In this document: one piece after another, positions 2,545 through 23,123 of the stretch | Layout: each line of letters starts with the position of its first letter | How positions within the stretch are numbered: the stretch's first letter is position 1 | Source: a virus | DNA: 23,123 nucleotides | Strand: one strand, 5' to 3' | Virus record (IMG/VR): IMGVR_UViG_3300048028_000230 | Location: 1-23,123 of that record | Translations under genes and position numbers: made by a program | The notes under the pieces: model-generated | Databases searched by the model: none | What the model was told of the DNA's origin: nothing | What the model saw: the letters and a program-made list of their open reading frames with translations, nothing else

Positions 2545-5500
2545 TATGTTACCGCCACCGCATCAAATCTATCAATTATTGGGAAAAGATTAATATCGGG
2601 TGTGATACTATTCAGGTCAGGGGAATCTAGTTCATCGCTAGTGCTATGTCTCAATACAAATCTTAACTGGAATGATGTGTACTCAGGTGGAGTCGCCCCT
2701 TCATTTAAACTATACTCATAGTGTCGATAATCATTAGGGTTACTCAGATTAGAATACTCTTCTGGGTTAGCCAAAATAAGTTTGTTATCCACAAAATTTG
2801 TTTTAGAATCTGGATTACTATTTCGTCTAAATCTAGCATATACATCAATCATTGTGCCAGCAGGTCTAAACGCATCAATGAAAACACTTAGCCCAACAGC
2901 AGGTAAAGCGTTTTCTAACATTACTTCTCTAGAAATCCAATTAGATGTAGTATTTCCATTAGAGTCATTAGTAATATCAACTTGAACAGCACACATTCCA
3001 GTCAGTTCTGTGTCTAGTACAGGCGAAACAGAACTCATTCCTTTATTAGACAAAGTTGCTCTGATTCTAAAGTCTTCTTTAAATGTTCCACCACTTCTTA
3101 ATTGCTCACTCTTGCTTATAATACTACGCATACCACCAAAGCCATATACATACTCACCTGATGAAATTGGCTTATCAATCACATAATTTTCTGAATCATT
3201 CTTTTCAAATAACTCTAACTTAGACCCAGTATTAATTGTATTATCGATTGCGACTTTAGGCTCAAAATATGATAGCTTGAAAGTATCTGTACTTGTGATT
3301 TTTGCTTCAGCCCCAGTTCTCACAGACCTAATAATCTGCGTGTTAGGCCTAACTGTTCCATTGTAATTTTGCGGATTAGCCGGCAAAGTACCTGCAACAA
3401 ACACATCACCCTGTTGCGGGTTAGAGCCTGCTCCAACATCTTGCCATGCGGCAGTATGACCCGCACTATCACCAAGTGTTACAATAGTGTATGTTGTTCC
3501 AGTAGCTATTTGATTAAAATTCTGAGATGCATTGTTGTCTATAAAGTTACCTGCTTTTGCAGAACTTTGTTTTAGATGTAACTTACTTGGATCGGCAGAA
3601 CTGTAATGTGAGACTATGCCGGCAACAACGAGACTGACTTGTACAGACACACCGCCTTCGGCAGTAATTGGTGGATAAGGAGAATCTAGTGTAAATGTAC
3701 CACCATCACTCTGTCCAGAAACTATTCTAGCAACAACTTTATCTGATACAGTACTATCAGAAGCCTGCACAAGAACATAGTCGCCTTCATTAAGTGCAAT
3801 AGTGCCTGCGCCAGGAGTCAGTATAGTAGGCGCATTGTTATCATCAAGGCCGCCACCTATTGTCATAGGGTATACTGTGTTTGCTGGGTTTGTGACATAC
3901 ACGAGTTCATCATTCTCAAAATGAATAATGTCAGATGTTCCTGTGGCTCTTGCATTGTCTCTTATGGTTAAAAACTCTACATCATCAGGAATCAGATCAA
4001 CCGTTCCGTTAGTAGTACTAAAGTCACATCTATTAATTACAAATTTCAAATCTTCATCTACATTAGGCTTCCATGAACTATCGTTTGTTGATACGAATAA
4101 TTTACCATCACCCCAATCACTTACTGACGATTCAACTACAGCGGTATTCAACTTAGATAAACTAGGGTTACCTACCTTAGATGTGAATAGCACATACTGC
4201 GGAGCGTTTGCATTTGGTTTAATAGTAAATGCATACTCAGTATCGGTTCTCAATTTAACTGGATTATCGAACTTAAACTTTGTTGCTTGAGTTCCGTTGA
4301 CTGATGACACAAGAAGCGGATCAAACTGAGATAATGTTTTGCTTGCAAATGGTAAAATATTTTTAGATGGATATCCATCTATGACTTCTCTTATCTGTAG
4401 TGTGACTCCAAAATTGGAACTAACCGTTCTAAAATAAACATCAATATCATTAATATATGCAAATCGTGAATTACCAGTCGAAGCAGATTTGATTTTGAAT
4501 GTTTGTGCAATAGGATCGCTTCCACTAGATCCGAATGTTCTATCTGGTTCAGCACTCTCCATACCACTAATAAATGTAGTAAATGTGCTGCCGTCATGAG
4601 TAACTTCTTTGGAGAAACTGTTTGCTCCTTCTAGAGGTCTGGTGCTATAACTTAATTCCCTTCCATCAAAATTATTTCCTCTAAATGCAACTTTAGCATA
4701 AGATGATGAAAAATCTTTTATGTCATCGTATGTAGCCACATCAGCTATTTCTAAAAAGTTGAATCCATCTGCTATAACTGTTTTACCAGGAATCAGAGCG
4801 GTGGCTCTAAGCACTCCATATTTATCAGTGAACAACTCATAAGCGGCACCAGGAGTAAGGCTGACTTCCGTATTTTGATCTAACATGACTTGATCATGTG
4901 CATTCCATCGTTTATCAGCCTTTACTCCGTTTCTGTATGCCGAGTTAGTGTTCTCAAGACCTTGTTTTATATTGATCAAATTTTCTGCTTTTTTATCGAA
5001 ATATACATAATGTCGTGCATTTGGTCGTAAACCAGTTGCAAATATTTTTATTCCCTGAGGGGCAACAAATGGAATAAATATATGGGTTGATATTTTCTTA
5101 CCAAACAGATCAGAGGTTGATCCATAGGGGAAGTAAGCTAATACACTCTCATGAGGGTCTGCTCCTACATCCCTTTCATCGACTTCTACAAATGCTGTTT
5201 CCTTTGTCTTAAATACTCGTGACTGTAGATCAGAAATTAATTTATTGGCTGCTACTTTGTTATAGTTTGCCGCATTGGGTTCGACAAATGTTTGTATATA
5301 CTCCATTTGTGCCTGATAAGGGATAGACAAGTCAACAGTAGAGTCTGCATAAGGATTATTAAGATAGTCAACATCTGAACTAAATCTAGGGTACATATCA
5401 GCTTCACCATCATATTTGTAGGTGTTTGTGACAGTATTTCTAGTATCAGTTGCATATGGCTGAGAAACAACAGGCACCGTTTGTGCATTGGGTGCTAGTG

Positions 5501-8462
5501 TAATCACTTCTGTAAACGCATCTGAAGTAGCTGTAGTGGAAACATTTGAAAGTGTTGATCTATCAGCTTTCAAATTTATGTTATAGCGATTTACGGCAGG
5601 CATCAAAACACCATCGCCCCCAATGGCTGAACGATATAATGGATCAAGTATATCAGATCCTTTAAAGTCATTAAAGTTGTCAGTTAATATGGCGTTTTTA
5701 AATCTATGTCCAGTATCATTTGCGATTACAATATTATTGGCACGATCTTCAGCAGATGTAGACTTCACATATGTAGTGAGGGCAGTTAACCTTTTATCTA
5801 AATCTTCAATATCTTTCATCGTGTATACTCTATTAGAAGTATTCAGTATTCGTATGGCATTTTTTCCACGAACACTGGTAGAGTTGCCAGGTATCAACAC
5901 ATCGGCAATCTTATATAAATTATTCAATTCTAATGGAGCCGGTTTATCACTTTCATCACCACTGATTAGTAGTGTATCGCCATACTCGTTTAATACAACA
6001 CTATCAACTCTCGACAGATAGTGTTCTATCGTGCTATTGATCACACTATTGACAGCAAGCATTCCAGTATGACTGCCTGCGCCCGGAAACTTCTCTCGAA
6101 CAAGAAGACTATCTGCATCAGCTAAAGCCATGTAACTAGAAATTAGTGAAAAATCAGACGCAGGTTCTTTTACTGACTGCTTATATTTTCTAAAGTCATA
6201 CAAAGTTAAAAGATCATGAGATACGCCATCATCTGTAGTATAATTTCTTAAATATTGTTTTGCTGATTCTGGATAACTATTCGCAGTCAGATAGCCACTG
6301 CTATCGATGTTGTCTAGTTTAAGACACTTCAACTCTACTATTAAATTATTTGCAGAAGGTGCAGTCTCTCCGCTTCGTAATTCTATGTAAGAAGTATCGT
6401 ACATGGTATCTGTCTGATTGTTGACAAGGAAAAACTTAGATGTGACATCAGTTAGTGAGTCGGGATTGTTCGTTCCGTCACTGCTAACTAAAATCTTTTC
6501 TATACTAACTACATTAGAATTTCCTAAAGTAGCACCCCTAAATGCAGAGTCATATTGAGTTTTAACGAATCCACTAACAAGCACTAAATCATCATGCGTT
6601 TCACCAATAGTGGTTTGATCGTAATAAACAATAATACTAGTAGGTGTGCCTGCAGGGAACCTTACTGTCATTCCAGTAAATACTCCACTTACATCTTTAC
6701 TAGCACTTACTAATATGGGTCTGTAGATTCTAGGTGTTTGCTCACCCGAAGGAGTTGCAATACCAAATACATTATCATTTGCTATAGGTTGACTTACGCC
6801 TGCATCAGCATTGATTACCGCATCTACATTATTACCTTGACCATCGTCAGCTAACGAGACACCAGATTTTCTAACCCTTCTCGTAATAACAGTATTGCTA
6901 ACAGACTTAATAGACTCTGCTCCTATGTCAAAAAGCATAGCACTCTTTGTCTGGTCGAACAACTTACCACTATTGGTTAATGATAGCTTGTTGCCTACAT
7001 ACGAGCCTGGGAGCGAATCTGCTATTGCTGTTGGTACTGCACTTTCTTGACCCGCTAATTTTCTAACATTAAACACATAGATTCTGCCCGCAGTAATATT
7101 TGCGATATTACATGAACCAATTTTAGTCGATCCATTATACAGGTCATAATCTCTACTAATGTCTGTCTCAGTACCATCGTTAGCCGAATCTACTGAGTTG
7201 GGGCTTTCTAGAGGATGAATCGGTTGAGCATTTGTAGCATTAAATGTAAAATACTGTCCATAATTTACACCAGTAGATTGATTAGGTTTTGTTTGACTAC
7301 TCACAGTAGGGCTTAGTGGTAATTGTATTTTGTTTCTATTGGTAACTTCTCTACCATAAACATACGCCTTACCGGGCATTACTTCTACATTTGGTGTACC
7401 ATTTGCATCTTTTACTAGTTTGGAATTTAATCCAGAAACGACATAGTTACCAGACTCATCATAACGTCTTCTAGCATTTTCATCACTAATCGCATTATAT
7501 TCTGTAAACTCACGAATACGAATAGGGTTACCACCGACATATCTAATTAAAGCAAAAAAGTTTTCTGGCTCTGAGTCAGTTGCGTATGTTACTAGTGTAG
7601 GCACTAACTGCAATCTATCAGCGCCCGGAGCATTTTGATTATTAAATCCAGATGCATTATCTAGAAGTGAAGAATCTTGATTTGAGTCAATAATGTTTTC
7701 TTTTACGCTGAACCCAACAGAAACATTATTTACAATAGCAGAGTTTGTGGGGTCTTGACCGGGTATATCACTATATCTAGTTACAATAACAATTTGTTCA
7801 TCGACAAAGATAAAATGACCTTTTTGATATACAACACCCTCTTCACAAGAAACAGCAAAACATTTACCAACATGATCAGAACTTTGTGCAGGAGGGTTTT
7901 GTGTAGTTAATACTAATTCTACACCATCAACAAGTACTGGTGAACTTTCTCCAGTTGGGTTGTATACTCTTAATGTTTCGCCTTTACCAAACTGCTTTGC
8001 GCCTGCAGTTATCTGCGATGTAGATGCATTATCAGAAAATCCAATGTAGTTAATAAAGAATGTTTTTAAGTTAGGTGCTTGTGTTTCGAATCCATTAAGA
8101 CCCTTTACGATTTCGGCTTTAAGTCCACTATCCGAACCAACTAAGATGTATCTACTTTTTTCACCTGAAGTTGCAGTAGCAAACTCATTGTATAAAGATG
8201 GGTCAGTAAACCCGGGTTGATCTTGCAACTTAACATAGTTCAAGTCATCACGAGAAGTCAAGTTAATGCCGCTGATGATAGTACCTTCTTTATACACATT
8301 TGAGCCAAATCGCTCAACTTGCTTCTGTAGAATAGTCTGAAGCTGAGTTAACTCTCTTGCTTGAACAGCCCTAGCAGGCTTGAACAAAACACGGTTAAAC
8401 TGTTTCGCCTCATCGAAATCATCGTAGTACGGATCTACATTTAAATCTTTATTGATACCCAT
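2544..8462 (-). CDS. Giant DUF4815-type baseplate/tail structural protein (1972 residues)
   Basis: The N terminus (about residues 10-65) carries the signature of the phage DUF4815 family: 'DPYYDDFDEAKQFNRVLFKP' then 'RAVQARELTQLQTILQKQ' and 'GSNVYKEG'. This family is found in large virion proteins of marine T4-like phages. Later there is a beta-rich region around residues 1280-1500 with 'DPIAQTFKI', 'DIDVYFRT' and 'LQIREVIDGYPS', and a conserved-looking C-terminal domain containing 'SPVLDTELTGM' and 'YTSFQLRFVLRHS'. A copy of the dispersed W/G-A module lies at about residues 1649-1705. No membrane segments or enzyme motifs were seen. Start: ATG preceded by AAGGAAAGAG, overlapping the stop of gp8. 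It lies where T4 has gp9, gp10 and gp11, so it may replace one or more of those peripheral wedge and fibre-connector proteins; that is inference from position. Confidence 0.75.
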   Translation of the reverse strand: MGINKDLNVDPYYDDFDEAKQFNRVLFKPARAVQARELTQLQTILQKQVERFGSNVYKEGTIISGINLTSRDDLNYVKLQDQPGFTDPSLYNEFATATSGEKSRYILVGSDSGLKAEIVKGLNGFETQAPNLKTFFINYIGFSDNASTSQITAGAKQFGKGETLRVYNPTGESSPVLVDGVELVLTTQNPPAQSSDHVGKCFAVSCEEGVVYQKGHFIFVDEQIVIVTRYSDIPGQDPTNSAIVNNVSVGFSVKENIIDSNQDSSLLDNASGFNNQNAPGADRLQLVPTLVTYATDSEPENFFALIRYVGGNPIRIREFTEYNAISDENARRRYDESGNYVVSGLNSKLVKDANGTPNVEVMPGKAYVYGREVTNRNKIQLPLSPTVSSQTKPNQSTGVNYGQYFTFNATNAQPIHPLESPNSVDSANDGTETDISRDYDLYNGSTKIGSCNIANITAGRIYVFNVRKLAGQESAVPTAIADSLPGSYVGNKLSLTNSGKLFDQTKSAMLFDIGAESIKSVSNTVITRRVRKSGVSLADDGQGNNVDAVINADAGVSQPIANDNVFGIATPSGEQTPRIYRPILVSASKDVSGVFTGMTVRFPAGTPTSIIVYYDQTTIGETHDDLVLVSGFVKTQYDSAFRGATLGNSNVVSIEKILVSSDGTNNPDSLTDVTSKFFLVNNQTDTMYDTSYIELRSGETAPSANNLIVELKCLKLDNIDSSGYLTANSYPESAKQYLRNYTTDDGVSHDLLTLYDFRKYKQSVKEPASDFSLISSYMALADADSLLVREKFPGAGSHTGMLAVNSVINSTIEHYLSRVDSVVLNEYGDTLLISGDESDKPAPLELNNLYKIADVLIPGNSTSVRGKNAIRILNTSNRVYTMKDIEDLDKRLTALTTYVKSTSAEDRANNIVIANDTGHRFKNAILTDNFNDFKGSDILDPLYRSAIGGDGVLMPAVNRYNINLKADRSTLSNVSTTATSDAFTEVITLAPNAQTVPVVSQPYATDTRNTVTNTYKYDGEADMYPRFSSDVDYLNNPYADSTVDLSIPYQAQMEYIQTFVEPNAANYNKVAANKLISDLQSRVFKTKETAFVEVDERDVGADPHESVLAYFPYGSTSDLFGKKISTHIFIPFVAPQGIKIFATGLRPNARHYVYFDKKAENLINIKQGLENTNSAYRNGVKADKRWNAHDQVMLDQNTEVSLTPGAAYELFTDKYGVLRATALIPGKTVIADGFNFLEIADVATYDDIKDFSSSYAKVAFRGNNFDGRELSYSTRPLEGANSFSKEVTHDGSTFTTFISGMESAEPDRTFGSSGSDPIAQTFKIKSASTGNSRFAYINDIDVYFRTVSSNFGVTLQIREVIDGYPSKNILPFASKTLSQFDPLLVSSVNGTQATKFKFDNPVKLRTDTEYAFTIKPNANAPQYVLFTSKVGNPSLSKLNTAVVESSVSDWGDGKLFVSTNDSSWKPNVDEDLKFVINRCDFSTTNGTVDLIPDDVEFLTIRDNARATGTSDIIHFENDELVYVTNPANTVYPMTIGGGLDDNNAPTILTPGAGTIALNEGDYVLVQASDSTVSDKVVARIVSGQSDGGTFTLDSPYPPITAEGGVSVQVSLVVAGIVSHYSSADPSKLHLKQSSAKAGNFIDNNASQNFNQIATGTTYTIVTLGDSAGHTAAWQDVGAGSNPQQGDVFVAGTLPANPQNYNGTVRPNTQIIRSVRTGAEAKITSTDTFKLSYFEPKVAIDNTINTGSKLELFEKNDSENYVIDKPISSGEYVYGFGGMRSIISKSEQLRSGGTFKEDFRIRATLSNKGMSSVSPVLDTELTGMCAVQVDITNDSNGNTTSNWISREVMLENALPAVGLSVFIDAFRPAGTMIDVYARFRRNSNPDSKTNFVDNKLILANPEEYSNLSNPNDYRHYEYSLNEGATPPEYTSFQLRFVLRHSTSDELDSPDLNSITPDINLFPIIDRFDAVAVT
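3348..3516 (-). repeat. Dispersed W/G-A module copy in the DUF4815 protein
   Basis: Encodes residues about 1649-1705, including 'GTTYTIVTLGD', 'AAWQDVGAG' and 'GDVFVAG', ending near 'NGTVRP'. The pattern G-x-x-Y-x-I, then W-x-x-V-G-A, then G-x-x-F is shared with copies in gp53, gp7 and gp8 in this window. Confidence 0.6.
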
Positions 8463-8478: not shown

Positions 8479-10458
8479 TTAAAAATCAAACGTGAACTTT
8501 ATTTTTTCGTTTTTAGTGCCATTTCTTGTTATTGGTGAAAAATCTATAAAATGTAATAGTTCTCCAGAATACACATCATACTGTCCATATGTAATGGATT
8601 CAGCTACTTTATTATTTATACTAGTCGTAGATGTAGGTGTAGACTTAACATAAAATATACCCTTCTGGAAATCGTGCATAAAGTCTCCATAATAATCTAC
8701 CAAGAATACTTTAGTTTTTTCAGCCACTGCGTCATACACGACATCATGTATTCTGGCTTTTACCACTTCAAATCGATAGTCGTAATCGTTAGCAGAAGTA
8801 TCAACTGCGCTTCTAACAAAAGAAACTGTACCCTTTGTAGTATCGGGTAAACTAATTGTTGATGTAGAAGTAAACTCTGTTCCAACTTCATTTGAAGTTG
8901 CGCCTATTGACTGCCACTGTGCTAAAGTCATAGTCTCTGGTGAAGGGTCAACTATTTTGCAGATTATACCCGGACTTAAATCTTTGACCCCTACAGTTTC
9001 GATAAACTGTTCGATATAGTCATTTTGTTGACCACCACCCGAAAGTCCACTTGCACTAGAGTATAGCTGATAGTGATTTCCGTCTAGCTGTATTACTGTT
9101 CTATTATCAAAGTCTCCATCAGTAGGTGTAACTGGATTACCAGAAGAATCTGAAAATGTTGGATTTTTAAGAAGACCAACAACAGAATATGTGCTAGTGT
9201 CTGGAACATAAGCGGAAGATCCCTGAAATACTGTAGCTATAGTCAACTTACTCATAGCAAGTTCATTGATTGGGTCTGAACCATGTCCACCTTTAGGGGA
9301 AACAATTGCACGAAGAACAGTTGGATTGTCTCTTACAGAAGTTGATCCCTTTAAGAAAGGTGGGTATACTACCTGCGCCGTTGCAAACTTATACTTAGTT
9401 CCTCTAGAATCGAAAGCAATATTTTTTAGTGTTCCATGTTCATCTATCTTACCGTATGCTTTACATCTTTCTCCACCAACCTCACTTTGACTAATCAATA
9501 TCTTTATCACTAACTGATATATTTGTTGAGCAATAAATGTGTCCTCAGTTTCTACACTCAGTGTAATTTGATTAGTATCTGACGAGGTTGTTGACGCAAT
9601 AACATCATATAGTTTACCAGTATTTTTATCACGAAGATACATATTCGCATACGCATTTGGATCAGTATAAAGAGTTCTTCCACTTATAACTGTAGTACTA
9701 ACAACAACATTTCTGATATTACTGCCTGATGCAGAAGTGTCTGGATTCACACAAGTAACATCAGATGCGTCATTTATGCTATTTGCAGGACCGAAAAGAT
9801 ATTGATTGAATTGACTATCAAGTGTGCTTTCTATCGCAATTCTAGAAATACTTTCTTTTGCGTTAAGAACTACTTGTTCTTCACCATATCCACCTGCACC
9901 AGTAACATACTCTGGTAGTGGTAGACTATCTGCTGATCTAAATTGTTCAGCATCATCAGCAGTAACTGTAAACATCTTATGCCATACATACCCATCAGAG
10001 CCAGTAAAGAACTGATAGTTAGATGAGTCTGTTGCGCCAACAATGTCGGTTGATGGTGCGCCATTATTATTATCGATACACTTTAGAACTATAAAACTAC
10101 CATTATCTAAACTAATAGTAACAATCATATCGAGCGTCTCAATGTCTTTTGTGTCATCAAACGCATCATAAACTCTACCCGATGTCCAGGCATTTTCTAA
10201 AAACATATATCTTGCGAGGTTAGTACCTGATGATCCACTTTGACCACCACGAGTCACCACATCTATTTTTGTACCAAAAATTGCTCTTCTCTGAAACTCT
10301 CTCTTAGAGAATTGCGTATTACTGATAGGACCACCTGCTCGATATTCTGAAACAGTTTTGGCAGTAGATGCCACAACATAGAAGTTGTCGTTCTCTAGAC
10401 TTTTATATAAGTTTTTAGTCGTTTCTGTTTTAAAATTTTCTGTTATAATTTTAGTCAT
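8479..10458 (-). CDS. gp8: Baseplate wedge protein gp8, enlarged
   Basis: The 659-residue product resembles T4 gp8 (334 residues) at both ends. The N-terminal part has 'TENFKTETTKNLYKSL', comparable to the T4 opening, and near residues 153-175 'GSDGYVWHKMFTVTADDAEQ' parallels the T4 'GDGYVWEYLFEI' segment. The last residues 'YSGELLHFIDFSPITRNG' and 'EKIKFTFDF' parallel the T4 ending, with an acidic-aromatic turn followed by I-x-F-T-F. T4 gp8 is a wedge dimer that joins gp10, gp7 and gp6. The extra length lies in the middle and includes a copy of the dispersed W/G-A module at residues about 489-549. Gene order (gp6, gp7, YHYH protein, gp8) follows T4 apart from the inserted YHYH gene. A GAGAAGA sequence precedes the ATG, and the upstream gene ends with tandem stops TAA TAG 15 bases earlier. 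Confidence 0.78.
   Translation of the reverse strand: MTKIITENFKTETTKNLYKSLENDNFYVVASTAKTVSEYRAGGPISNTQFSKREFQRRAIFGTKIDVVTRGGQSGSSGTNLARYMFLENAWTSGRVYDAFDDTKDIETLDMIVTISLDNGSFIVLKCIDNNNGAPSTDIVGATDSSNYQFFTGSDGYVWHKMFTVTADDAEQFRSADSLPLPEYVTGAGGYGEEQVVLNAKESISRIAIESTLDSQFNQYLFGPANSINDASDVTCVNPDTSASGSNIRNVVVSTTVISGRTLYTDPNAYANMYLRDKNTGKLYDVIASTTSSDTNQITLSVETEDTFIAQQIYQLVIKILISQSEVGGERCKAYGKIDEHGTLKNIAFDSRGTKYKFATAQVVYPPFLKGSTSVRDNPTVLRAIVSPKGGHGSDPINELAMSKLTIATVFQGSSAYVPDTSTYSVVGLLKNPTFSDSSGNPVTPTDGDFDNRTVIQLDGNHYQLYSSASGLSGGGQQNDYIEQFIETVGVKDLSPGIICKIVDPSPETMTLAQWQSIGATSNEVGTEFTSTSTISLPDTTKGTVSFVRSAVDTSANDYDYRFEVVKARIHDVVYDAVAEKTKVFLVDYYGDFMHDFQKGIFYVKSTPTSTTSINNKVAESITYGQYDVYSGELLHFIDFSPITRNGTKNEKIKFTFDF
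8613..8620 (-). promoter_or_regulatory. Possible internal late promoter (TATAAATA) within gp8
   Basis: An exact TATAAATA octamer on the coding strand lies inside the 3' end of gp8 (codons for S-I-N), about 150 bases before the ATG of the giant DUF4815 gene. It matches the T4 late consensus exactly and could give that gene extra transcription. In AT-rich coding DNA a chance match is possible, so confidence is moderate. Confidence 0.4.
8811..8991 (-). repeat. Dispersed W/G-A module copy in gp8
   Basis: Encodes residues about 489-549 of gp8, with 'LSPGIICKIVDPS', 'AQWQSIGATSNEVGTEFTST' and a final 'KGTVSF'. It keeps the W-x-x-I-G-A and G-x-x-F positions. The usual Tyr of the first strand is Cys here. 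T4 gp8 has no such segment as far as I recall, so it looks like an inserted domain. Confidence 0.6.
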
Positions 10459-10473: not shown

Positions 10474-11397
10474 TTAAGAGCGAACCTCTTTAGTACTAGT
10501 TCCTATTATGTATGGGTACGCTGGCGTACTTAAATTGTTATCTGCATATGTTAAGAAATATGCGTATGTTCCGTTTTTAAAATCAGGCGTTATACAGAAC
10601 CTACCATTATGCTCATCCAAAACATCTGAGGCAGAATCTGCGACATGAACATAATCTTCCACATAAGCCCCTGCCGCTAAGTCGCCTCTACCTTCGGGTA
10701 AAATTTCTTTTTCTTCGTAACCACTTTTCATTCTAATTACACTACTTGTTGGATCATTTGCATCTGAATATCCAAAGGGCCCATAAATTGGATATCCATC
10801 TAGTGCAAATCCAACTATTTTAGAATGTCCACCAGTAAAAGTGACAGCGCCGTTATTATCTATTTCTTGCGGGTGAGCCAGATAGTTTCCATTAAAGCTA
10901 GTGTTTTTATAATATGGGCTAGCATCTCTAAGAGTCTCGTTGTTAGTAAAACCATTAACAAAGAATGCGTTACCTCTATATCTATATTCTATTTCTTCAC
11001 CTTCTGATGCTCCATCACATAAATCAAATGAAAATCTAGTAGAATTAAGAGGGCTTTGAGAGTCCCATGTAAGCCCAGTACCTGCATCTTCGTCATCTTC
11101 CCAACTTATCTGCACTGCTGAAGTATAAATGGGAACTCCATTTAATGTAACACCAACTGGTTCATTTAATTCTACAGGTGTTGGAGTACCTGGCAAAGTT
11201 TCACGATCACCATTCGATAAAATTTTACCACCCTCACCGCCTCTGTAGTTTATACTATAGACTTTACTCTGATCGGCTATTTCTGTATTTTGACCAACAA
11301 AAACCCTGTTTCCAGAATTCACTGGCTGACCCAATACATCTACGCCAGCAAAGGCTGGGTATGGATCACCATCAGTAGTAATTTTTATTATAGCCAT
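10474..11397 (-). CDS. YHYH-domain virion protein (307 residues)
   Basis: The second half carries the hallmarks of the YHYH family: 'GGHSKIVGFALDGYPIYGPF' (about residues 189-208), then 'LDEHNGRFCITPDFKNGTYA' and 'YPYIIG' near the end. The eponymous Y-H-Y-H motif is degenerate: the expected site reads 'GNYLAHP', keeping only the first Tyr and last His. The N-terminal 100 residues are beta-rich with no recognised domain. There is no signal peptide, unlike many bacterial YHYH proteins, which are exported. It lies between gp7 and gp8, 10 bases after gp7 and 15 before gp8, so it is probably a baseplate or tail component. The biochemical role of YHYH domains is not established. The start is the ATG at 11395-11397; another ATG five bases upstream is out of frame. 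Confidence 0.75.
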   Translation of the reverse strand: MAIIKITTDGDPYPAFAGVDVLGQPVNSGNRVFVGQNTEIADQSKVYSINYRGGEGGKILSNGDRETLPGTPTPVELNEPVGVTLNGVPIYTSAVQISWEDDEDAGTGLTWDSQSPLNSTRFSFDLCDGASEGEEIEYRYRGNAFFVNGFTNNETLRDASPYYKNTSFNGNYLAHPQEIDNNGAVTFTGGHSKIVGFALDGYPIYGPFGYSDANDPTSSVIRMKSGYEEKEILPEGRGDLAAGAYVEDYVHVADSASDVLDEHNGRFCITPDFKNGTYAYFLTYADNNLSTPAYPYIIGTSTKEVRS

Positions 11398-11407: not shown

Positions 11408-14400
11408 CTATTGTGTTATCGTTCCTGATTCTACAACTGTAGAAACTTTAATTATTTCAGGGTCTCCACCATCATCACCCTGATTAGTCTCAAACACTTC
11501 ACCATCTATATCAGTTATTGTTATTTTCTCGAAAACATATCCCTCTAAAAAGCCTGCTGTAAACGATAATACTGCTCCAGTAGCATAGTCACCGAGTTTG
11601 AAAAAGGTGCTGTCTGCGGCTTTAGCAATAACTTTATAGTAATCAAGCGGTACAACTGCTTTTGTTGTTTCGTGTGTTGCGGCACCAGAAACTTTAACGA
11701 TATCGTTAACTGCAATATTAGTGAATGGGTCTGGATTCGCAGGGTTGACAGAGACAACTCCATCGGAAGCAAGTTGATACTCAGTACCCGCTACAGGCAC
11801 ATTAGTATTTTCAATAAACCCTGACGCAAGCAACGAAACTGTGTTAACATCGTAGAAATTAATTTCAACTGATAGATCGCTATCTACATCACTGTTACTA
11901 TTTATCAAAGATGTGCTAAACATTTTTGTACCCACAACACCTACAGTATCTTTAACTAGAGGAGTGTATAAGCCTGGGTCAATGATAGATGCGATATCAT
12001 ACGAATACTCTTGATAATAATCATTGTCATGTAGTCTTTGTCCAGAGGTGTGACCCAAGAAAGAGGAATTTGTCTTCCATCTACCACCAGTATTACCCAT
12101 TCCTAGAGTTCTAACATTTCCAGTTGCAATAACTTTATTATAACTATCGCTTGACGGGTTTAAGTTTATGATATCTACAGTTGCATTGTCATCATACTTA
12201 TATCCAGTATGTGTTATTTTAGCATCCAGTAATTGTCCACTACTAAATGAAGCTGAACCTAAAATGTTTGCATTCGCACCCATAGATTGCGAAGTTTCAT
12301 CTTTTCTAATCATAGATATATTTTTATCTACAGATCGAATGTTAACAGGAACAGATGTGTCGAAGCCATAAAAACTCATTGGTCTAAAGTAATAATCCTT
12401 ACCAAGCTGTTTTAAGAATCGATGTTTTGATTGATACTTTTGAGTTTCAATTGCAAATGTAGTCACACTATTTCCATATGGAACTGCATCAGTCACTGCT
12501 GTTGTACTTATAGCCAATCCTGCAACATCTTCAGCACTTAAATCATTAACGGAGTCAATCGCTTCCGATGGAAGAACGATCTCTTGTACTATCATTTCGT
12601 TAGGTTCTAATGTAAAATCTGCGGATTCAAAATTAACTATGACATCTTTCTTGTCGAATCTAGCAATTTCTTCATTTAAGACTCTAACTTGTGTGTCATT
12701 TTCGTAATTGATGCCTGGTTGATCATTGCTTATCTCGCTTATAGTGCCTATATCAAATGTGATTTTTGTAAAGGCTTCTCCAAATGGGGTGTCTATATTT
12801 TGCAATCCACCATTAAGTGTACCAGTCATCTCGTATTCAGCATCACCATATCTGTCATTGGGGTTTGCTGTACTAGGGTCGATTAGTTCTCTATAGTAGT
12901 CACCAATTTGATCTCTTATTATACTAACAGTTTCTTTATTCGAGATACCAGTAATATTAAAGTTTGAAGATTCGTTTAACGCACTTATCTTTGAACACTT
13001 TACTGGTTGAGAGTAATCACCGTTCAGATATCCAAAGAATTTGGTAGTAGCGCCTGGTTCTGCGGGCAACACTCTTTGTTCGTCAGAACCACTTATCAAT
13101 GGATTACCAAAAACACCACCAGAATTGAAATACTCATTAGCATTGGATGCATTAGAAACACCAACAACATTTAATATATCTAAGCAGATACCTGTTCCAC
13201 TAACAGAGTCTGGCTGTGGGTCAGTCGCTGTAAATCTAACTGGAGTGGTTTGACCACCATTAGCATGAACAGCAGACACATCTATAACTTTTCCTGTTCC
13301 AGTTACAGTTGGCTGTGGATTAGCCGCTTGAAACTTAACGCCCTGTGTAAAGTCTGTTCCAGTAACACCCACATCAGCCCAATGTTGTAAGGTAGTAGTT
13401 CCGGGGTCTTTAATGATGTATGTTCGACCAGGCACCAAACTATCTACATCCAAATCAAAATCAGTTATGTTTGTAAAGTCTAGACCAACAGAAACCCAGC
13501 CTGCATAAGAAGTTGTACCCATGTCACTAACAATATATTCTCGCCCAGCAATCAAATCTTTTACAGAGAGATTATATACACTGTAGTGAGCATAATTATT
13601 ACTTGGGGGTGCAGAGTAAGATGTTCCTATTGTCAACTTAGGTAAAATACGATTTTCTGCTAGATATCTAAACCATCTACCATAGACTTGTTTGATTGGC
13701 GAGAAGATAGCATCGAATCTAGCTAGAGTTGAGGGTACTACAACACCACTACTAAGTTCAATTACATTTGTATTCAGTTCACTAAGTTTAGAGTTTGTGA
13801 ATATAAAGTCTTCACCTGCTATTCCTTTAGTTGCACCAATCTTAGCCCAATCACTTGCTGTTAGATTTGTGCCAGGGTGAACGATTGTGTATAGTTGACC
13901 ATTGTCCAGTTCAGATAATCCAAGATTACTATCAAATCCAAACTCAGCAGTAACTGGAATAACAGGAGATATAGTTGGAGTTCTATCAATAACATCAGTA
14001 CCACTTTGTGCGCCACCACCTGCTAGATTCATAGTTGCGTCAGAAGTTGATAACCATTGATCATTATCACCATTTCCATCATCAATACCATTATTGATAG
14101 CAAGAAGATAGCTAGACATTATATTAACATCTGATAGTGTAATATCAGTAGCAATAGAACTTAAATCACCAATGCCAGCAGTACCAGTGAAATTACCAAG
14201 TGCGCCTGCACCATAAGAAGACTCTTGTTTAATAACTTTAGTAAGTCCAAGATTTGGTGTATCAAATGTCGGCGCTTGACCTTGACTAAGTTGATATGCG
14301 TTAAAAAAGGAATCATAAAGAAGATTTCTTAATGTCACACCGTTGTAGTTCCAAGTCTGACCAAGAAATTCAAATAGCCCAGTCTTATCTGCTTTTGTTT

Positions 14401-15472
14401 CAATATAAAGAAGTGGATGTTGATAATCAATAACTGTAGCTGAACCAGTAATACTATATTGTGTAGCAGGTCTATCATTCGTATATGTCTCTTGTCCATC
14501 GTATGTTACAGTAGACCCAGGAAACACAAGTGTATCACCTGCTTGAATGGGAGTAGTTATTTCTTCGTCTACTACAAGAACTTGATTACTAATACCAACA
14601 TCTTGTACAGTAACAGATGTAGAACCTGGCACTATGTAACCAAATCCACCATCAATAATTTTATAGTTTATTGATCCAATTTGTGCGCCAGATACTTCGC
14701 TTACAATACCCTTAGCACCAGTACCATCTTCTCTTGATCTAAACTCTACTATATCACCAACACTCTGCTCAGGTAATCGATTGCCATCATTGACCACAAT
14801 AGAACTTAACGATCCTGATATTAACTTACCGACATTTCTAATTGTATTATTACCATCTGCATCTGCGCCCAATACTTCAAGTGCATCATCAGACGAGAAT
14901 CTACCCTTTAGATTTGATAGATAAACAACTGGAGTTAAAGCGCCTGAAAAGTTTACAAACACGATGTCATCAACAAACGCAGAAGCAAGAGTCAGATCAC
15001 CAGTGATGGTGTTACCTCTTTTTATGGGATAATCATTTACATCATATACAGTAGTCATCTCAAGGAACTCTTCACCGCCCCAAATAGAGTCAGATGGTTT
15101 TAGTATAGAAGAACTAGGATAGACTACTTCAATGTCTTCGTTAAAGAATAATCTAAACAATAACTCAAGAGATTCTTGTGATCCTTTTCTTGTGTATAGA
15201 TCATCGATATGTTTGATAATAAAACGAATATCAACTGCTGGGTCTGTTTGAAGTGGAAGATCATTAAGGTGCTTATTCTTATAATACACCATAAACGAAG
15301 TAAGAGTAGTATCAATATCTCTTAGTTTGGGAATGTCACGATCCATCTTCTCGTCAAGATGCTTATAATAAGCCTCAACAAAAGATATTAGAAATTGACT
15401 ATTCTCTTTATAGACATCAGGAAACTGACTTGTAATGTCGGAATAGATATTGTCTCTTATCGCAATTGGCAT
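11408..15472 (-). CDS. gp7: Baseplate wedge protein gp7-like, 1354 residues
   Basis: It directly follows gp6, the T4 position of gp7. The N-terminal ~125 residues ('FPDVYKENSQFLISFVEAYY', then 'DDLYTRKGSQESLELLFRLF' and 'NEDIEVVYPS') resemble a segment in the C-terminal part of T4 gp7, where a helical region with F-x-E-A-Y, Y-x-T-K-G, L-F and N-E-x-(I/V)-E-(V/I) occurs. In T4, gp7 is the wedge initiator that binds gp10, gp8 and gp6. Here the large N-terminal part of T4 gp7 is missing and about 1200 mostly beta-rich residues follow instead. Residues about 517-775 hold three W/G-A modules and a degenerate half copy. There are no enzyme motifs or membrane segments. The ATG is 3 bases after the gp6 stop, with a GGAA sequence about 10 bases before it. 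The gp7 identity rests on position plus the N-terminal match. Confidence 0.68.
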   Translation of the reverse strand: MPIAIRDNIYSDITSQFPDVYKENSQFLISFVEAYYKHLDEKMDRDIPKLRDIDTTLTSFMVYYKNKHLNDLPLQTDPAVDIRFIIKHIDDLYTRKGSQESLELLFRLFFNEDIEVVYPSSSILKPSDSIWGGEEFLEMTTVYDVNDYPIKRGNTITGDLTLASAFVDDIVFVNFSGALTPVVYLSNLKGRFSSDDALEVLGADADGNNTIRNVGKLISGSLSSIVVNDGNRLPEQSVGDIVEFRSREDGTGAKGIVSEVSGAQIGSINYKIIDGGFGYIVPGSTSVTVQDVGISNQVLVVDEEITTPIQAGDTLVFPGSTVTYDGQETYTNDRPATQYSITGSATVIDYQHPLLYIETKADKTGLFEFLGQTWNYNGVTLRNLLYDSFFNAYQLSQGQAPTFDTPNLGLTKVIKQESSYGAGALGNFTGTAGIGDLSSIATDITLSDVNIMSSYLLAINNGIDDGNGDNDQWLSTSDATMNLAGGGAQSGTDVIDRTPTISPVIPVTAEFGFDSNLGLSELDNGQLYTIVHPGTNLTASDWAKIGATKGIAGEDFIFTNSKLSELNTNVIELSSGVVVPSTLARFDAIFSPIKQVYGRWFRYLAENRILPKLTIGTSYSAPPSNNYAHYSVYNLSVKDLIAGREYIVSDMGTTSYAGWVSVGLDFTNITDFDLDVDSLVPGRTYIIKDPGTTTLQHWADVGVTGTDFTQGVKFQAANPQPTVTGTGKVIDVSAVHANGGQTTPVRFTATDPQPDSVSGTGICLDILNVVGVSNASNANEYFNSGGVFGNPLISGSDEQRVLPAEPGATTKFFGYLNGDYSQPVKCSKISALNESSNFNITGISNKETVSIIRDQIGDYYRELIDPSTANPNDRYGDAEYEMTGTLNGGLQNIDTPFGEAFTKITFDIGTISEISNDQPGINYENDTQVRVLNEEIARFDKKDVIVNFESADFTLEPNEMIVQEIVLPSEAIDSVNDLSAEDVAGLAISTTAVTDAVPYGNSVTTFAIETQKYQSKHRFLKQLGKDYYFRPMSFYGFDTSVPVNIRSVDKNISMIRKDETSQSMGANANILGSASFSSGQLLDAKITHTGYKYDDNATVDIINLNPSSDSYNKVIATGNVRTLGMGNTGGRWKTNSSFLGHTSGQRLHDNDYYQEYSYDIASIIDPGLYTPLVKDTVGVVGTKMFSTSLINSNSDVDSDLSVEINFYDVNTVSLLASGFIENTNVPVAGTEYQLASDGVVSVNPANPDPFTNIAVNDIVKVSGAATHETTKAVVPLDYYKVIAKAADSTFFKLGDYATGAVLSFTAGFLEGYVFEKITITDIDGEVFETNQGDDGGDPEIIKVSTVVESGTITQ
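13176..13254 (-). repeat. Half copy of the W/G-A module in gp7
   Basis: Encodes 'VRFTATDPQPDSVSGTGICL', which parallels the second half of the preceding copy ('VKFQAANPQPTVTGTGKVID'). The DNA is also similar (a shared GGCTGTGG element followed by GTCGC versus GCCGC on the plus strand), suggesting a local partial duplication. The W/G-A first half is absent. Confidence 0.55.
13279..13446 (-). repeat. W/G-A module copy 3 in gp7
   Basis: Residues about 675-731: 'LVPGRTYIIKDPGTTTLQHW', then 'ADVGVTGTDF' and 'GVKFQAANPQP', ending 'GTGKVIDV'. It is one of the most complete copies in the window. Confidence 0.65.
13462..13570 (-). repeat. W/G-A module copy 2 in gp7
   Basis: Residues about 634-670: 'LIAGREYIVSDMGTTSYAGW' then 'VSVGLDFTNI'. 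It is short: the G-x-x-F second half is missing and the next copy starts a few residues later, so copies 2 and 3 are nearly tandem. Confidence 0.6.
13755..13921 (-). repeat. W/G-A module copy 1 in gp7
   Basis: Residues about 517-572: 'LDNGQLYTIVHPGTNLTASD', then 'WAKIGATKGIAGEDFIFTN'. The Y-T-I, W-A-K-I-G-A and G-x-D-F positions are all present. Confidence 0.6.
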
Positions 15473-17649: not shown

Positions 17650-17668
17650 TTTTATTCCCTTTATAGAT

Positions 17669-17676
17669 TATTTATG
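17669..17676 (-). promoter_or_regulatory. Late promoter (CATAAATA) before gp25
   Basis: CATAAATA on the minus strand lies 5 bases after the stop of the M15 peptidase gene and 19 bases before the gp25 ATG, in one of only two gaps over 30 bases in the window. It matches the NATAAATA form of T4-like late promoters. The leader would hold AGGGAA as the ribosome-binding site. Confidence 0.58.
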
Positions 17677-17681
17677 CTATA

Positions 17682-19598
17682 TTACAAGCGTTTCTTTTTA
17701 AAGCTATCAATAGCGTGTTCATCTAATAGCAATGCGTTTATCGTTAAATCTTCACCACTAAACCCTTTCTGCCAACCTCTACGAGGACCTAGATCAAGAT
17801 GTAGATGTCCAGTATATATTCCAATACCAGTAAAGCCTGCTCTACTAGCGGCAACTACAGTGTCATCTCTATTCTTAGTGGTAACAAATATGTCAATAGC
17901 AAAGCCAGAGTTATGTGAGTTCATTGAAGTACCACCTACAGTGTCTTTATCAGCACGAGGCACAAATGCTTGCTTGACTTCATATGACTCGCCTGTCTGT
18001 GCAACAACACGAAGTAGTCTAGCCCATACACTACTGTCTATCTCTTTCCATCCCTTACTTGTTTTAACAGGCTCACTAAATGTGATGTTTGATCCAAGAC
18101 CAGATTCACTCAGACCAAAGATAGCATTATTCTCTTCTTCTGATGCATTAGGTCTTGTTATAAAGTCTGCATTTCTATTAGAGGGGCTTACATTCTTATA
18201 GGTATCTTCTACTTTCTTTAACTTATCTCTTCGTGTTTCTTCACTCACTCGTATAGCACCATACTTAACGGCTTGTTTTGTATTCTCTGCACTCTGTGAT
18301 TTAAGTGCTTTTGCGTTTGAGCCAATACTATTTGCCATCTTGTTAAGTTTCAATGCAGGCGCCATTAACTTAGCTTGTAAGTCTTGAGCAATTTGACATA
18401 GACGAAACATTACATTAGCAATGTTCTCGGGCGTAAGTCTCTCAAACTGACCGGCTAGATTTGTTATAAGTGCTTCCATATCTGCTAGAATAGACTTTAC
18501 ACTTGCGTCTTCAAGATAGTCATTTATCTGTTGCATTGTCTTATTCAACTTCTTCATAATAGCAGAAGCGGCACTCTCCATACCTTTAAGAGTAAGAAGT
18601 ACAGAGCCAGCGGCGGCAAGTGCTAGATTCTTTGCCTGATTCACAGCACCTTCTATTACATTTTGTAGTATCTGCATTAATGATTCAAGTACACTACGTT
18701 GCTTAATACTCTCAATTAGCTTGAGTGGGTCTTTCTCTAATAGATTTGTTAGTTGGTCAATCTGTGTACGCCCTGCTTTTACTACAGCAAAGGCTTTAGT
18801 GAGATCAGCAAGTACATCGTTATATGCACCACAAGCAGAAGCAGTTAGTTCTTGACCAATGTTAATCGCAAACTGAAAGTCCAATGCCTTAAATGTACGA
18901 TATAGCAATACAGGCAATATAGTCGTACTACCACCTAGTACAGACAATAACTCAGTTCTTGATAGTCCATCATCACTACTAAATGTTTGTTGTTCTCCAA
19001 ATGGACCTGGGCCTCCACTTGTACTAATGTTCGAAGTATCACCACCCAGTATAGATGTATTTCCAGAGCCAGTGTCTATAGTAGGTATACCTGAAGTACC
19101 ACTACCACCAACTCCAATACCATCGCCTGCTCCACTACCAGTACCTGAAGTACCATCGCCTGCTCCACTACCACTACCAGTGCCTGAAGTACCATCGCCC
19201 GTGCCAGTACCTGTCGTACTTCCTATATTTGTTGTCGTAGTACTTGACGAAGTGGGCAAACCTGTGTTATAATCATCTAGTACCTTCTGTAATTCTGTTA
19301 CATCCGTGTTATTATCAAGAGTAAACTGTGCTATATCAGTGGGGGTGATTCTTCCATCCTCGCTAACTTTATTTGCTAGTGATGGAAAATCGTCAAGTGG
19401 GGTGTTTGCAAGCGCATTATTAAGACCATTTGTAAGATTAATAATGGCATTTCTATCCACACTATCTAGTGGATTAGTCGTATTTACGAGTGTAGATAGA
19501 TCAAGAATAGCGTCAGCAAGAGCAGAACTCGTTACATTTAGCGTTTCATCTGCGTTTTTACTACCCAGTGGCGTAGTATTATCACATATAGTACTCAT
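17682..19598 (-). CDS. Baseplate-associated protein with C-terminal M15-type zinc peptidase domain
   Basis: The 638-residue product has four visible parts. The N terminus (about 1-108) is helical and polar. Residues about 109-190 are low-complexity Gly/Ser/Thr-rich with tandem repeats. Residues about 230-480 are largely helical and coiled-coil-like, with an Ala-rich hydrophobic stretch ('AKNLALAAAGSVLLTL'). The C terminus (about 510-625) has the M15 peptidase signature: 'MNSHNSGFAIDIFV' with His562 and Asp569 in S-x-H-x-x-G-x-A-x-D spacing, and 'GHLHLDLGPRRGW' with His600 and Asp602. By analogy His562, Asp569 and His600 would bind zinc. Such enzymes cut peptide cross-links in peptidoglycan. 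It begins one base after the gp5-like gene (GGAG nine bases before the ATG). Since that gp5 lacks lysozyme, this protein is probably the particle's wall-cutting enzyme. A separate lysis endopeptidase is less likely given the long structural N-terminal region. Confidence 0.75.
   Translation of the reverse strand: MSTICDNTTPLGSKNADETLNVTSSALADAILDLSTLVNTTNPLDSVDRNAIINLTNGLNNALANTPLDDFPSLANKVSEDGRITPTDIAQFTLDNNTDVTELQKVLDDYNTGLPTSSSTTTTNIGSTTGTGTGDGTSGTGSGSGAGDGTSGTGSGAGDGIGVGGSGTSGIPTIDTGSGNTSILGGDTSNISTSGGPGPFGEQQTFSSDDGLSRTELLSVLGGSTTILPVLLYRTFKALDFQFAINIGQELTASACGAYNDVLADLTKAFAVVKAGRTQIDQLTNLLEKDPLKLIESIKQRSVLESLMQILQNVIEGAVNQAKNLALAAAGSVLLTLKGMESAASAIMKKLNKTMQQINDYLEDASVKSILADMEALITNLAGQFERLTPENIANVMFRLCQIAQDLQAKLMAPALKLNKMANSIGSNAKALKSQSAENTKQAVKYGAIRVSEETRRDKLKKVEDTYKNVSPSNRNADFITRPNASEEENNAIFGLSESGLGSNITFSEPVKTSKGWKEIDSSVWARLLRVVAQTGESYEVKQAFVPRADKDTVGGTSMNSHNSGFAIDIFVTTKNRDDTVVAASRAGFTGIGIYTGHLHLDLGPRRGWQKGFSGEDLTINALLLDEHAIDSFKKKRL
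19119..19215 (-). repeat. Tandem repeats coding for a Gly/Ser/Thr/Asp linker
   Basis: Two and a half imperfect copies of a 33-39 base unit (plus strand core CCATCGCCTGCTCCACTACC followed by AGTACCTGAAGTA or a close variant) encode GTG-SGTGSG-AGDG-type repeats at residues about 128-160 of the M15 protein. They probably form a flexible tether. Such repeats can change length by slippage. Confidence 0.75.
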
Positions 19599-19599
19599 T

Positions 19600-21230: not shown

Positions 21231-22582
21231 TAGGTATATCCGCCCTTTGTAATCTGTATTGATTGCTTATGTAAATCGTCACTAAAGGTAGATGATATGC
21301 CTGTCACAATATATCGACCACTTCTCTCATGGTCTACTTCTCTATTGCCGCTGACTGTATTACTAATCTTATATAGTTCAAGATTAATTACCCTGCCTGG
21401 ATACAGCTTAATACGCCCATTAATCTCCAGTATCATAGAGTTAACAGCAAAGTGATAGTCCACAATAGGCTTTGCCGTATAGTTCTCATAGAAATGCTGA
21501 TAAGGCTTCTTCATATTCTGTTGCCCTTGGCTCTGCCCGATCTGAGGAAAGTCTGTCAGTAGATACTCCTCAGGCGCCGTCTCTTGCCCCATGTATCGAT
21601 CAAGAAAGGTCTGGCTGTGCGTTAGCTTAATCTTCGAAGGGAACTCTTTGTCGCCGACTTCAGTAGAATAATCATACTGGCGTTCGATACGAGTCCTTGT
21701 CGTTGGATCAAGTTCGGTCACGGTACGCCGATAGGTCCCAGACTTCATATCTTTGAATGTATCGACCTTCGTGCCTAGATTGAAGTCGTTTACAGACTGT
21801 TGGGCAATTCTCTGCCCGGGTCCTGTGTTGTCTTCTAACGTGTTGTAGATAAAATAAAGCGGGTTTTTATCGTCATCGTTTAGGGCGTCTAAATCGCCGT
21901 ATTTTTCGACCAGGTACTCAGGCGTACAAAAATAATACTTCTCTCTTGTCTCAAAGAATCTATATAATGCTGTTTTATTTCTTGTACTGTATGCCCTTCT
22001 ACTTAAAAATTGCATTGCGGCATCGGCTTTAAGGTTTGGTATGACAAGAGTTTGTTCTCCATCTGTTTCTTCTATCTCTATCTCTTTATCATAGTCTTTA
22101 TTGCCTGTTAACATAAAGGTATCATAGATATCTTGTACGATATCACTTATTTTTGTATTACTATAGGACTTTCTTATACCTTTTGAGTCGCCTTGTAGCT
22201 TTTGTACTGATGTGAATCGTACTGTATATTTCATCATTCTATCGTTTGTTGAGGCCGCTGGCTGAATATCTTCGATGGAATATAGAAAAAATTTGTGCGT
22301 GGCGCTTTCGCCATAGAAATCTGTGTATGTTAATTCAATTTCTTCTTCTCCAATCAACGGAACATCTTCTAATAGATTGTCGGATTCATTAATAATTGCG
22401 AAGCCCGAGACGAATGGGGAGTTCATTGACTCTGTGATACCCCAGTTAACAATGGTTTTTGTGACTTCAATATGTTCAGGCAGAGAGTTATTCTCGCTAT
22501 CCGAATTAATATTCTCTTCTATGATAGGCTTTATCTTAAAAGATTTAAGCGTATAGAAGCCTGCGTTAGTAACATTATCCAT
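21230..22582 (-). CDS. Baseplate central hub protein, gp27/gpD-like
   Basis: The 450-residue product precedes the gp5-like spike, as expected for the trimeric hub that carries it. Features of the gp27/late-control D fold include an N-terminal beta region with 'GEEEIELTYTDFYGESATHK' and 'FFLYSIEDIQP' (about 78-110), a helical segment 'SNTKISDIVQDIYDTFM' (about 141-157), and a C-terminal barrel: 'ILEINGRIKLYPGRVINLEL', 'SGRYIVTGISSTFSDDLHKQ' and 'SIQITKGGYT'. The 'G-R-x-x-L-x-P-G ... G-x-Y-x-V' pattern followed by a final amphipathic strand is typical of gpD-like hub domains. T4 gp27 is 391 residues, so it is somewhat longer. The ATG overlaps the gp53 stop by 8 bases. The gp27 assignment is by fold pattern and position; pairwise similarity to T4 gp27 is weak. 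Confidence 0.7.
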   Translation of the reverse strand: MDNVTNAGFYTLKSFKIKPIIEENINSDSENNSLPEHIEVTKTIVNWGITESMNSPFVSGFAIINESDNLLEDVPLIGEEEIELTYTDFYGESATHKFFLYSIEDIQPAASTNDRMMKYTVRFTSVQKLQGDSKGIRKSYSNTKISDIVQDIYDTFMLTGNKDYDKEIEIEETDGEQTLVIPNLKADAAMQFLSRRAYSTRNKTALYRFFETREKYYFCTPEYLVEKYGDLDALNDDDKNPLYFIYNTLEDNTGPGQRIAQQSVNDFNLGTKVDTFKDMKSGTYRRTVTELDPTTRTRIERQYDYSTEVGDKEFPSKIKLTHSQTFLDRYMGQETAPEEYLLTDFPQIGQSQGQQNMKKPYQHFYENYTAKPIVDYHFAVNSMILEINGRIKLYPGRVINLELYKISNTVSGNREVDHERSGRYIVTGISSTFSDDLHKQSIQITKGGYT

Positions 22583-23123
22583 CGTTTAATATGATCTCAA
22601 GTTGATCTTTAATTGTGGCTAGATAGCCCTTGTTAACTAATTTTATTTCTCGTCTTTCTTCATTAATATTAAATTCATAGTCATATGCTCGAACTGGATA
22701 GAATTCACGAGCAGGATTATCAATTGATGGCACAGTCAATATGGGTTGTAATGTAGCAAGAGTGGCGGCGATTGCTGAATATGTATTAGCAGTAACTTCT
22801 GCACCCACCACTGGTTCAAATGTACTATCATTTGTGAAGAGTCTCCATGCGGCAGTCGATAAATCACCCAGACTTTTAATAACATATGTCTCGCCAGCAA
22901 CAACGGCTCTTGCTTCTATTGTTTTACTATTACCAAGAGAGACAAATGTTGCACGATTTGTTGTGACATCAGGATCATATTGGCTTTGATAGTATACAAT
23001 ATTAGATGCTATTTGATCATTTTTCGACCACTCAAGAACTGCATCGCCTGTTAATGCAGACTGTTCAGCGTATTGAGCAATAATATGTCTCTCTAAATTC
23101 TCTTGACTCTTAGGCCATTCGCT
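22575..23123 (-). CDS. gp53: Baseplate wedge protein gp53, C-terminal part (cut by right window edge)
   Basis: The frame is open from base 23123 to the TAA at 22575, giving 182 codons with no start inside; an internal GTG at 22809-22811 lies mid-frame and is not a convincing start. The C terminus 'YDYEFNINEERREIKLVNKG' followed by 'YLATIKDQLEIIL' matches the usual gp53 ending, in which a strand-turn with (I/N)-N-E-x-R-R-x-I precedes a final helix. 'EFYPVRAYDYEF' just before also fits. gp53 is the wedge protein that clamps adjacent wedges around the hub in T4. About 50 residues in the middle (from 'VAGETYVIKSLGD') resemble the dispersed W/G-A module, an insertion relative to T4. T4 gp53 is 196 residues; here 182 are visible with the N terminus missing. 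It overlaps the next gene by 8 bases. Confidence 0.78.
   Translation of the reverse strand, partial: SEWPKSQENLERHIIAQYAEQSALTGDAVLEWSKNDQIASNIVYYQSQYDPDVTTNRATFVSLGNSKTIEARAVVAGETYVIKSLGDLSTAAWRLFTNDSTFEPVVGAEVTANTYSAIAATLATLQPILTVPSIDNPAREFYPVRAYDYEFNINEERREIKLVNKGYLATIKDQLEIILNDG
22767..22916 (-). repeat. Diverged W/G-A module copy in gp53
   Basis: Encodes 'VAGETYVIKSLGDLSTAAWR' and then 'FEPVVGAEVTAN'. The first strand (G-x-x-Y-x-I-x-x-x-G) and the W are preserved. The second half is more diverged than in the gp7 and gp8 copies. Confidence 0.5.

Follow-up and report, generated by a model that had tools for sequence, protein, structure and literature searches.

A small module recurring in otherwise unrelated baseplate proteins of a T4-like phage, with support for its being an insertable virion domain

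Why should four otherwise unrelated baseplate proteins carry the same short stretch of sequence? The question is raised by IMG/VR record IMGVR_UViG_3300048028_000230, a whole virus record of 23,123 bases (the window) that carries a minus-strand, T4-like baseplate gene block. In an initial annotation, six stretches of similar pattern in gp53, gp7, gp8 and a DUF4815 protein were read as copies of one segment, and were proposed to be an independent beta domain that is inserted into, and moves among, virion genes. The copies as we now delimit them, with the evidence for each, are the following.

22758..22916, minus strand: module copy in gp53, after a LysM-like stretch (leave-one-out and foreign profile)
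13763..13918, minus strand: module copy 7a in gp7 (profiles and alignment; strands and helix predicted)
13460..13567, minus strand: front half of copy 7b in gp7, comprising beta1, beta2 and the helix (profiles, alignment and predicted structure)
13271..13453, minus strand: module copy 7c in gp7, apparently nested within 7b (profiles and alignment; modelled alone)
13163..13243, minus strand: probable back half of copy 7b in gp7, PVRFTATDPQPDSVSGTGICLDIL, after the nested 7c (alignment, matrix scan and predicted strands; weak alone, E 2.1)
8803..8994, minus strand: module copy in gp8 (leave-one-out and foreign profile; retention in orthologs)
3333..3524, minus strand: module copy in the DUF4815 protein (leave-one-out and foreign profile; longer contigs)

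All six stretches first noted are read in frame in their proteins on translation, and the module is 45-65 residues long. Single pairwise comparisons of the copies are often too weak alone, and a chance match between the DUF4815 copy and gp5 reached 10.6 bits, equal to some true pairs. Profiles separate the copies from background: a profile of any five finds the sixth in its place (6/6, 9.8-36.2 bits), and in the same runs the non-module stretches of the window's 12 proteins reached at most 5.5 bits, below the lowest true score of 9.8. A profile of foreign phages scored 20.1 bits for gp8, 15.7 for DUF4815, 13.5 for 7c, 11.9 for 7a, 10.3 for gp53 and 3.3 for 7b, and its sole further match at E<3 in the 12 proteins was the back half of 7b, at -1.7 bits; this profile and the corresponding matrix are not wholly foreign, as their source loci include two DUF4815 copies from the window's own clade (L139 and L140). 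A clade profile iterated on 85 loci (80, three more and two window pieces) plus the window gave 168 domains in 101 open reading frames (ORFs) of 61 loci, with repeated and near-identical contigs counted, and matched nothing at E<10 in the same 1829 ORFs reversed. In whole records of relatives, a profile search found the module in 12 of 12. Two further copies, in fibre-like proteins downstream, are present in a nearly identical phage (gp6 100% identical) whose contig extends further. Seven columns are near-invariant in 44 aligned copies (Y14, I16, G20, G31, G40, F43 and G56). Profile comparison thus confirms that the six segments are copies of one homologous module, and the idea of a single recurring segment in otherwise unrelated virion proteins holds up by leave-one-out and by the foreign profile; the contrary outcome envisaged for it, a hidden Markov model (HMM) that finds no similarity between copies, did not occur.

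The copies are all real, but one of them was listed only in part. The gp7 stretch at 13462-13570 is a front half: in the alignment 7b breaks off after its helix, a complete 7c comes next, and there follows a stretch of the form FTAT..PQP...GTG..C.D, at about 13163-13243, which matches the missing half of 7b. This stretch is present in the window and, in varied form, in gp7 orthologs that reach that far. When the modules of the window's gp7 are masked, the foreign-phage matrix ranks it as the top site, with 10.6 bits vs 2.5 for the next. Over 15 module-masked gp7 orthologs, a two-part matrix placed the expected site first in eight, the window's included, third in two (L011 and L008) and outside the top three in five (L020, L016, L082, L036 and L047). 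A local profile for the back half alone reached no significance (E 2.1 with the foreign-phage profile). An AlphaFold2 model of 286 gp7 residues (16 sequences; predicted local distance difference test score, pLDDT, 73.4; predicted template modelling score, pTM, 0.70) places strand, strand and helix before the whole of 7c and strand, strand after it, and predicts the same element order for 7a, 7b and 7c. Insertion of 7c within 7b is well supported by these results, short of proof, so that the three module stretches claimed for gp7 are there but make up one copy, 7a, plus a nested pair.

Other insertions are seen in the same region of relatives. A long further insert breaks up 7c in nine of them (L012, L081, L023, L020, L079, L016, L036, L047 and L056), the gp7 of L056 has an entire additional module in the 7a loop, and those of L036 and L047 have another insert in that loop. 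By eye the long 7c insert, with a ...HGF..GDKV-like pattern, resembles the E1_FCCH Pfam match of L134; a Pfam scan of four gp7 regions returned nothing, and we do not claim the name.

The module is predicted to be a compact beta-beta-alpha-beta-beta mini-domain. Structure models cover the gp7 copies; among these, 7c modelled alone by AlphaFold2 from 44 aligned modules (64 residues) gave a pLDDT of 92.3 and a pTM of 0.77, with strands at residues 2-4, 13-18, 42-44 and 57-60 and a helix at 24-30. The proposal of an independent beta domain is therefore right in that the module folds alone in prediction, but the predicted fold is alpha/beta and not pure beta, and separate folds integral to each protein were not seen among the modelled gp7 copies. 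A Foldseek search of the PDB with the 7c model gave no E-value below 1 (best 1.2). The matches of 7c on a second look at the PDB, to FeoA, IdeR and a manganese-dependent repressor, are weak (Z scores of 4.8 to 2.8 over 51-55 residues, root-mean-square deviation 2.8-3.2), with eIF-5A next at 2.3. The likeness to FeoA and to the SH3-like C-terminal domain of IdeR is a resemblance of fold at most: the module has no FeoA match in Pfam and its context is virion genes. Among the predicted structures of BFVD, 7c is matched by 11 phage proteins with probability of at least 0.99 and E 0.0012-0.049, including a tip attachment protein J and a YHYH protein.

At orthologous sites in gp53 and in an SU10-type adaptor, the module is present in some relatives and absent from others. 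There are 28 distinct gp53 sequences, the window's own being a truncated piece of the nearly identical protein of L003. The module is found in nine by profile and in two more (L021 and L022) as a diverged copy in the alignment; the remaining 17 are without it, and 15 of them continue flush over the site. In L046 and L048 the gp53 site is occupied by a different insert or a decayed one, and it is possibly an insertion hot spot. At least two changes are needed to place the gp53 module on a gp6 tree of 30 loci, and a single origin is compatible with the starred branches. The adaptor of L197 has a 46-residue copy that is absent from the counterparts in DSL-LC04 (80% identical over 134 residues), HTVC027P and HTVC023P. 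In L173 and L177, whose adaptors belong to the same family, the module lies near the N terminus and there is none at the L197 site, so this one family has accepted it at two sites.

Two other host proteins, gp8 and DUF4815, hold the module more steadily. In gp8 it sits at one site in all 36 distinct clade orthologs longer than 550 residues (profile E<0.05), a count that omits five ORFs of 550 residues or fewer without a match and one short ORF with a match; at the stricter E<0.001 it is found in 44 of 50 ORFs, repeats and fragments included. The gp8 proteins of phiM12, Cr30 and HTVC008M have no module at that site. In DUF4815 proteins the module is present in seven of seven longer contigs, about 270-290 residues ahead of the C terminus, and that distance, not an alignment, is what suggests a single site; only 3 of 44 ORFs of the first locus set contain it, at least partly because the loci end before the module. 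At least one copy is present in 35 of 51 distinct long gp7 ORFs, window pieces and near-identical contigs included.

The module is not confined to this clade. A tighter, canonical form of 46 residues, first read in L142, has at least 190 confirmed relatives in IMG/VR viral contigs from one exact-pattern scan, of which 80 were kept. These, together with the earlier loci and two GTDB loci, make up a canonical set that with repeats removed comprises 143 domains in 89 ORFs (73 distinct sequences) at 88 loci; an earlier count of 152 domains in 94 ORFs, in which five contigs were counted twice, is superseded. With the modules masked, BLAST groups the 89 ORFs into 31 clusters (27 when the cut is looser). 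The clade DUF4815 makes up one of these, and since several clusters match the same PHROGs (3287 and 511) the truly unrelated host families are fewer. The initial annotation had remarked on similar segments in other phage proteins, and these loci and clusters bear it out. The two forms detect each other: at E<0.001 the canonical profile detects 76 clade domains and the clade profile detects 90 domains in 50 ORFs, repeated contigs included; in the reversed control, none of 2239 ORFs matched at E<10. A scan of viral contigs with an HMM consensus found no relative, nor did a scan of GTDB contigs with an L056 copy; the two GTDB loci came from the canonical form.

We compared 29 host proteins with PHROGs; they represent 26 of the 31 clusters, with L134, L135 and S-TIM54 added, and are a sample drawn from similarity searches, not a random one. 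Tail, head-and-packaging or connector families were matched by 24, among them the L135 host, whose top match is to a lysis family (amidase), followed by a connector family; four (L206, L204, L183 and L212) match only unknown PHROGs or none. The PHROGs families may include the module inside their profiles. Named hosts are the SU10-type adaptor, a T4 gp15-type sheath stabiliser, a phrog_376 tail protein that is presumably T7-like, internal virion proteins, a distal tail protein, the central fibre J, tail spikes and another baseplate wedge protein. A tail-type protein at L135:752-3025 has three to four degenerate copies in tandem, and a spike-like protein at L141:1612-4659, in a phage record with an isolate-style IMG number, has one module mid-protein. 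A PstS-like phosphate-binding protein at L230:3527-5335 also contains the module; its contig is binned as a Klebsiella pneumoniae metagenome-assembled genome, and may be a mis-binned phage because PHROGs labels the PstS-like protein a phage auxiliary gene.

One cultured carrier is cyanophage S-TIM54, with a single copy (E 1.5e-21) in an open frame of 1337 residues whose annotation is virion protein. Two Manatee Spring phage genomes, not known as cultured, have one copy each. The 15 cultured phages first chosen, T4, phiM12 and VP4B among them, showed no module with the clade-only profile A2 or with A5, which agrees with what the initial annotation had said of T4; A5 was run because A2 detects the canonical form poorly, and it was positive in eight of eight other records, chosen for their earlier matches. 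A Listeria phage record (L234) had no profile match. BLAST-type searches of cultured phages with clade copies gave nothing, or a weak match (E 0.8), or Vibrio phage VP4B at E 8 (two records), which is negative by profile. These failures are probably due in part to masking of the GTGTGT tail, and matches of the canonical form end at residue 29-31.

How do the copies come to be where they are? The nearest relative below 70% identity lies in the same host protein for 88 of 104 clade copies, counting all gp7 copies as one host protein and pooling 11 copies in unassigned proteins, and for this reason we consider the copies mostly inherited in place. The picture of a domain moving among virion genes is thus right in that the module is insertable and present or absent at given sites, but movement is rare. 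The clearest candidate for a transfer is seen between the gp7 of L022 and, on contig G008, a protein of 473 residues (33 identities in 62 columns). In gp8 the module is less identical than its host protein in 622 of 625 pairs, which are not independent (means 33% vs 52%). For the nine closest gp8 pairs among those listed, the ratio of nonsynonymous to synonymous substitution rates (dN/dS) is 0.12-0.28 for the module vs 0.08-0.17 for the host; the gp8 module is under purifying selection, clearly so for close pairs only.

The host proteins in the window are identified by gene order and by family matches, as follows.

22575..23123, minus strand: gp53 baseplate wedge protein, truncated by the contig end (phrog_232)
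11408..15472, minus strand: gp7-like baseplate wedge protein, host of 7a-7c (phiM12 gene order)
8479..10458, minus strand: gp8-like baseplate wedge protein (phrog_438)
2544..8462, minus strand: DUF4815 protein (PF16075)

The block runs gp53, hub protein, gp5, M15-peptidase-type protein, gp25, gp6, gp7, YHYH protein, gp8, DUF4815 and fibre proteins. Sinorhizobium phage phiM12, where the hub counterpart is annotated as gp27-like, served as the reference for gene order; phiM12-type phages are also the closest to the window's gp6 among the cultured-phage matches listed, at 39% identity. A profile of orthologs of the window's gp53 matched T4 gp53 in the PDB (5hx2 and 5iv5; E 8.4e-8). It came from alignment A3, in which the last module strand is misplaced and which was used solely for this search; weak matches to arenavirus glycoproteins in the same search were taken as chance. 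The protein at 17682-19598 (minus strand), with a long Gly/Ser/Thr-rich linker, is called M15-peptidase-type by position only, as phiM12 has an M15 peptidase there. The YHYH-domain protein lies at 10474-11397 (minus strand) between gp7 and gp8, and PHROG matches put the same domain within far longer virion proteins of other phages.

These results support the view, at the level of sequence, that the module is an insertable domain of virion proteins. The account we favour, at about even odds, is that the segments are one self-contained display module which the loops of virion proteins can take up. On this account the ends of the module would lie together, so that its addition to a loop would spare the host fold, and it would protrude from the virion surface. 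Its most likely role would then be to offer extra contact surface, on which either adjacent virion parts such as fibres could dock or the cell could be weakly bound. Rare recombination would spread it, with inheritance in place thereafter, and it would diverge faster than the host protein while keeping its core pattern. A role as decoration or handle is plausible. Docking has a precedent in Anabaena phage A-1(L), in which an insertion domain in one of the two forms of the wedge protein gp31 (gp31B) is described as holding the long tail fibre (PMC10966104); that insert, of about 100 residues, is by its description likewise an extra domain placed in a baseplate wedge protein. A broader proposal would make this uncatalogued, self-folding domain a surface component that tailed phages have in common, one that has entered loops of tail, baseplate and connector proteins many times independently, even within its own copies, and that supplies virions with interchangeable contact points, possibly for one class of partner; this we regard as unlikely.

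Several observations count against the display account. No long gp8 ortholog and no DUF4815 contig read is without the module, which thus looks integral to these two proteins. One of the 29 hosts, the PstS-like protein of L230, is not a known virion part. In distant gp8 pairs the dN/dS of the module rises to 1.02 (25 pairs listed; dS is high and these are hard to read). Residues shared by at least half of 44 copies are for the most part glycine, aromatic, aliphatic or small and look structural, and so no shared binding site is visible.

The strongest alternative is that the module is a tolerated passenger with no common function: a self-folding segment whose ends lie together does little harm, recombination scatters it, and its copies persist where they are costly to remove or have been locally recruited. 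It would explain why there is no conserved polar site, why host proteins, sites and copy numbers are so different, and why other sequences occupy the same holes, as at the gp53 site in L046 and L048, in the 7a loop and in 7c. We nevertheless hold it to be somewhat unlikely, since the gp8 copy is under purifying selection in close pairs and is retained in 36 of 36 orthologs, which suggests that at least that copy is useful, and since the preference for virion proteins (24/29, in a non-random sample) also speaks against it. A specific binder of sugars or of the cell surface, as has been proposed for Ig-like phage domains, would fit the tail spikes, fibres, distal tail protein and central fibre proteins among the hosts, and also the faster divergence of the gp8 copy relative to its host protein; it is improbable, because the module also occurs in proteins whose expected place is the particle interior or the connector (the SU10 adaptor, internal virion proteins and the sheath stabiliser) and candidate binding residues are not conserved. 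Convergence of integral parts on a beta-hairpin pattern, for which the constancy of gp8 and DUF4815 could be cited, is very improbable and largely refuted by the leave-one-out and foreign profiles, the empty reversed controls (1829 and 2239 ORFs), the flush absences in gp53 and adaptor orthologs and the one common fold prediction.

Is a module of this kind already known? Promiscuous domains of phage virion proteins are, but this one is not a family of its own in the libraries we searched. Neither Pfam nor PHROGs gave a significant match for 20 clade copies or for the canonical consensus (in Pfam, none below E 0.1 and 0.01, respectively); six single-copy matches in NCBIfam, searched with clade copies only, had E 0.017 or worse and were taken as chance; PDB sequences gave no module match below E 0.2, and the literature matches listed (open-licence PubMed Central text only) included no description of the module. 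Ig-like domains are one close parallel: they are small, recur in unrelated phage virion proteins, are variably present in related phages and are probably displayed on the surface. Like them the module recurs in unrelated virion proteins, but unlike these sandwiches of about 80-100 residues it is, in the 64-residue model, four short strands and a helix, has no Ig match in Pfam, and is inserted inside proteins and inside its own copy. Unlike decoration proteins of the Hoc/Soc type, which are gene products of their own, it is part of a longer ORF in each locus listed. It differs from inteins and homing endonucleases in its length of 45-65 residues and in having no nuclease or splicing match in Pfam; no exact match of more than five bases links the two ends of one adaptor copy. 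A survey based on ECOD domains and shared sequence fragments (PMC10684548, Nat Commun 2023) describes in general terms how fragments are shuffled between the proteins of tail fibres, spikes and baseplates; the present module is no Pfam or PHROG family of its own.

What this module adds to the known repertoire of promiscuous virion domains is its self-nesting, its clean gain or loss at orthologous sites, in one case between adaptors that are 80% identical, and its use of two sites within one adaptor family. With a profile of the module, segments of many unknown virion proteins could be annotated, and S-TIM54, being in culture, would allow a direct test of what such an insert does.

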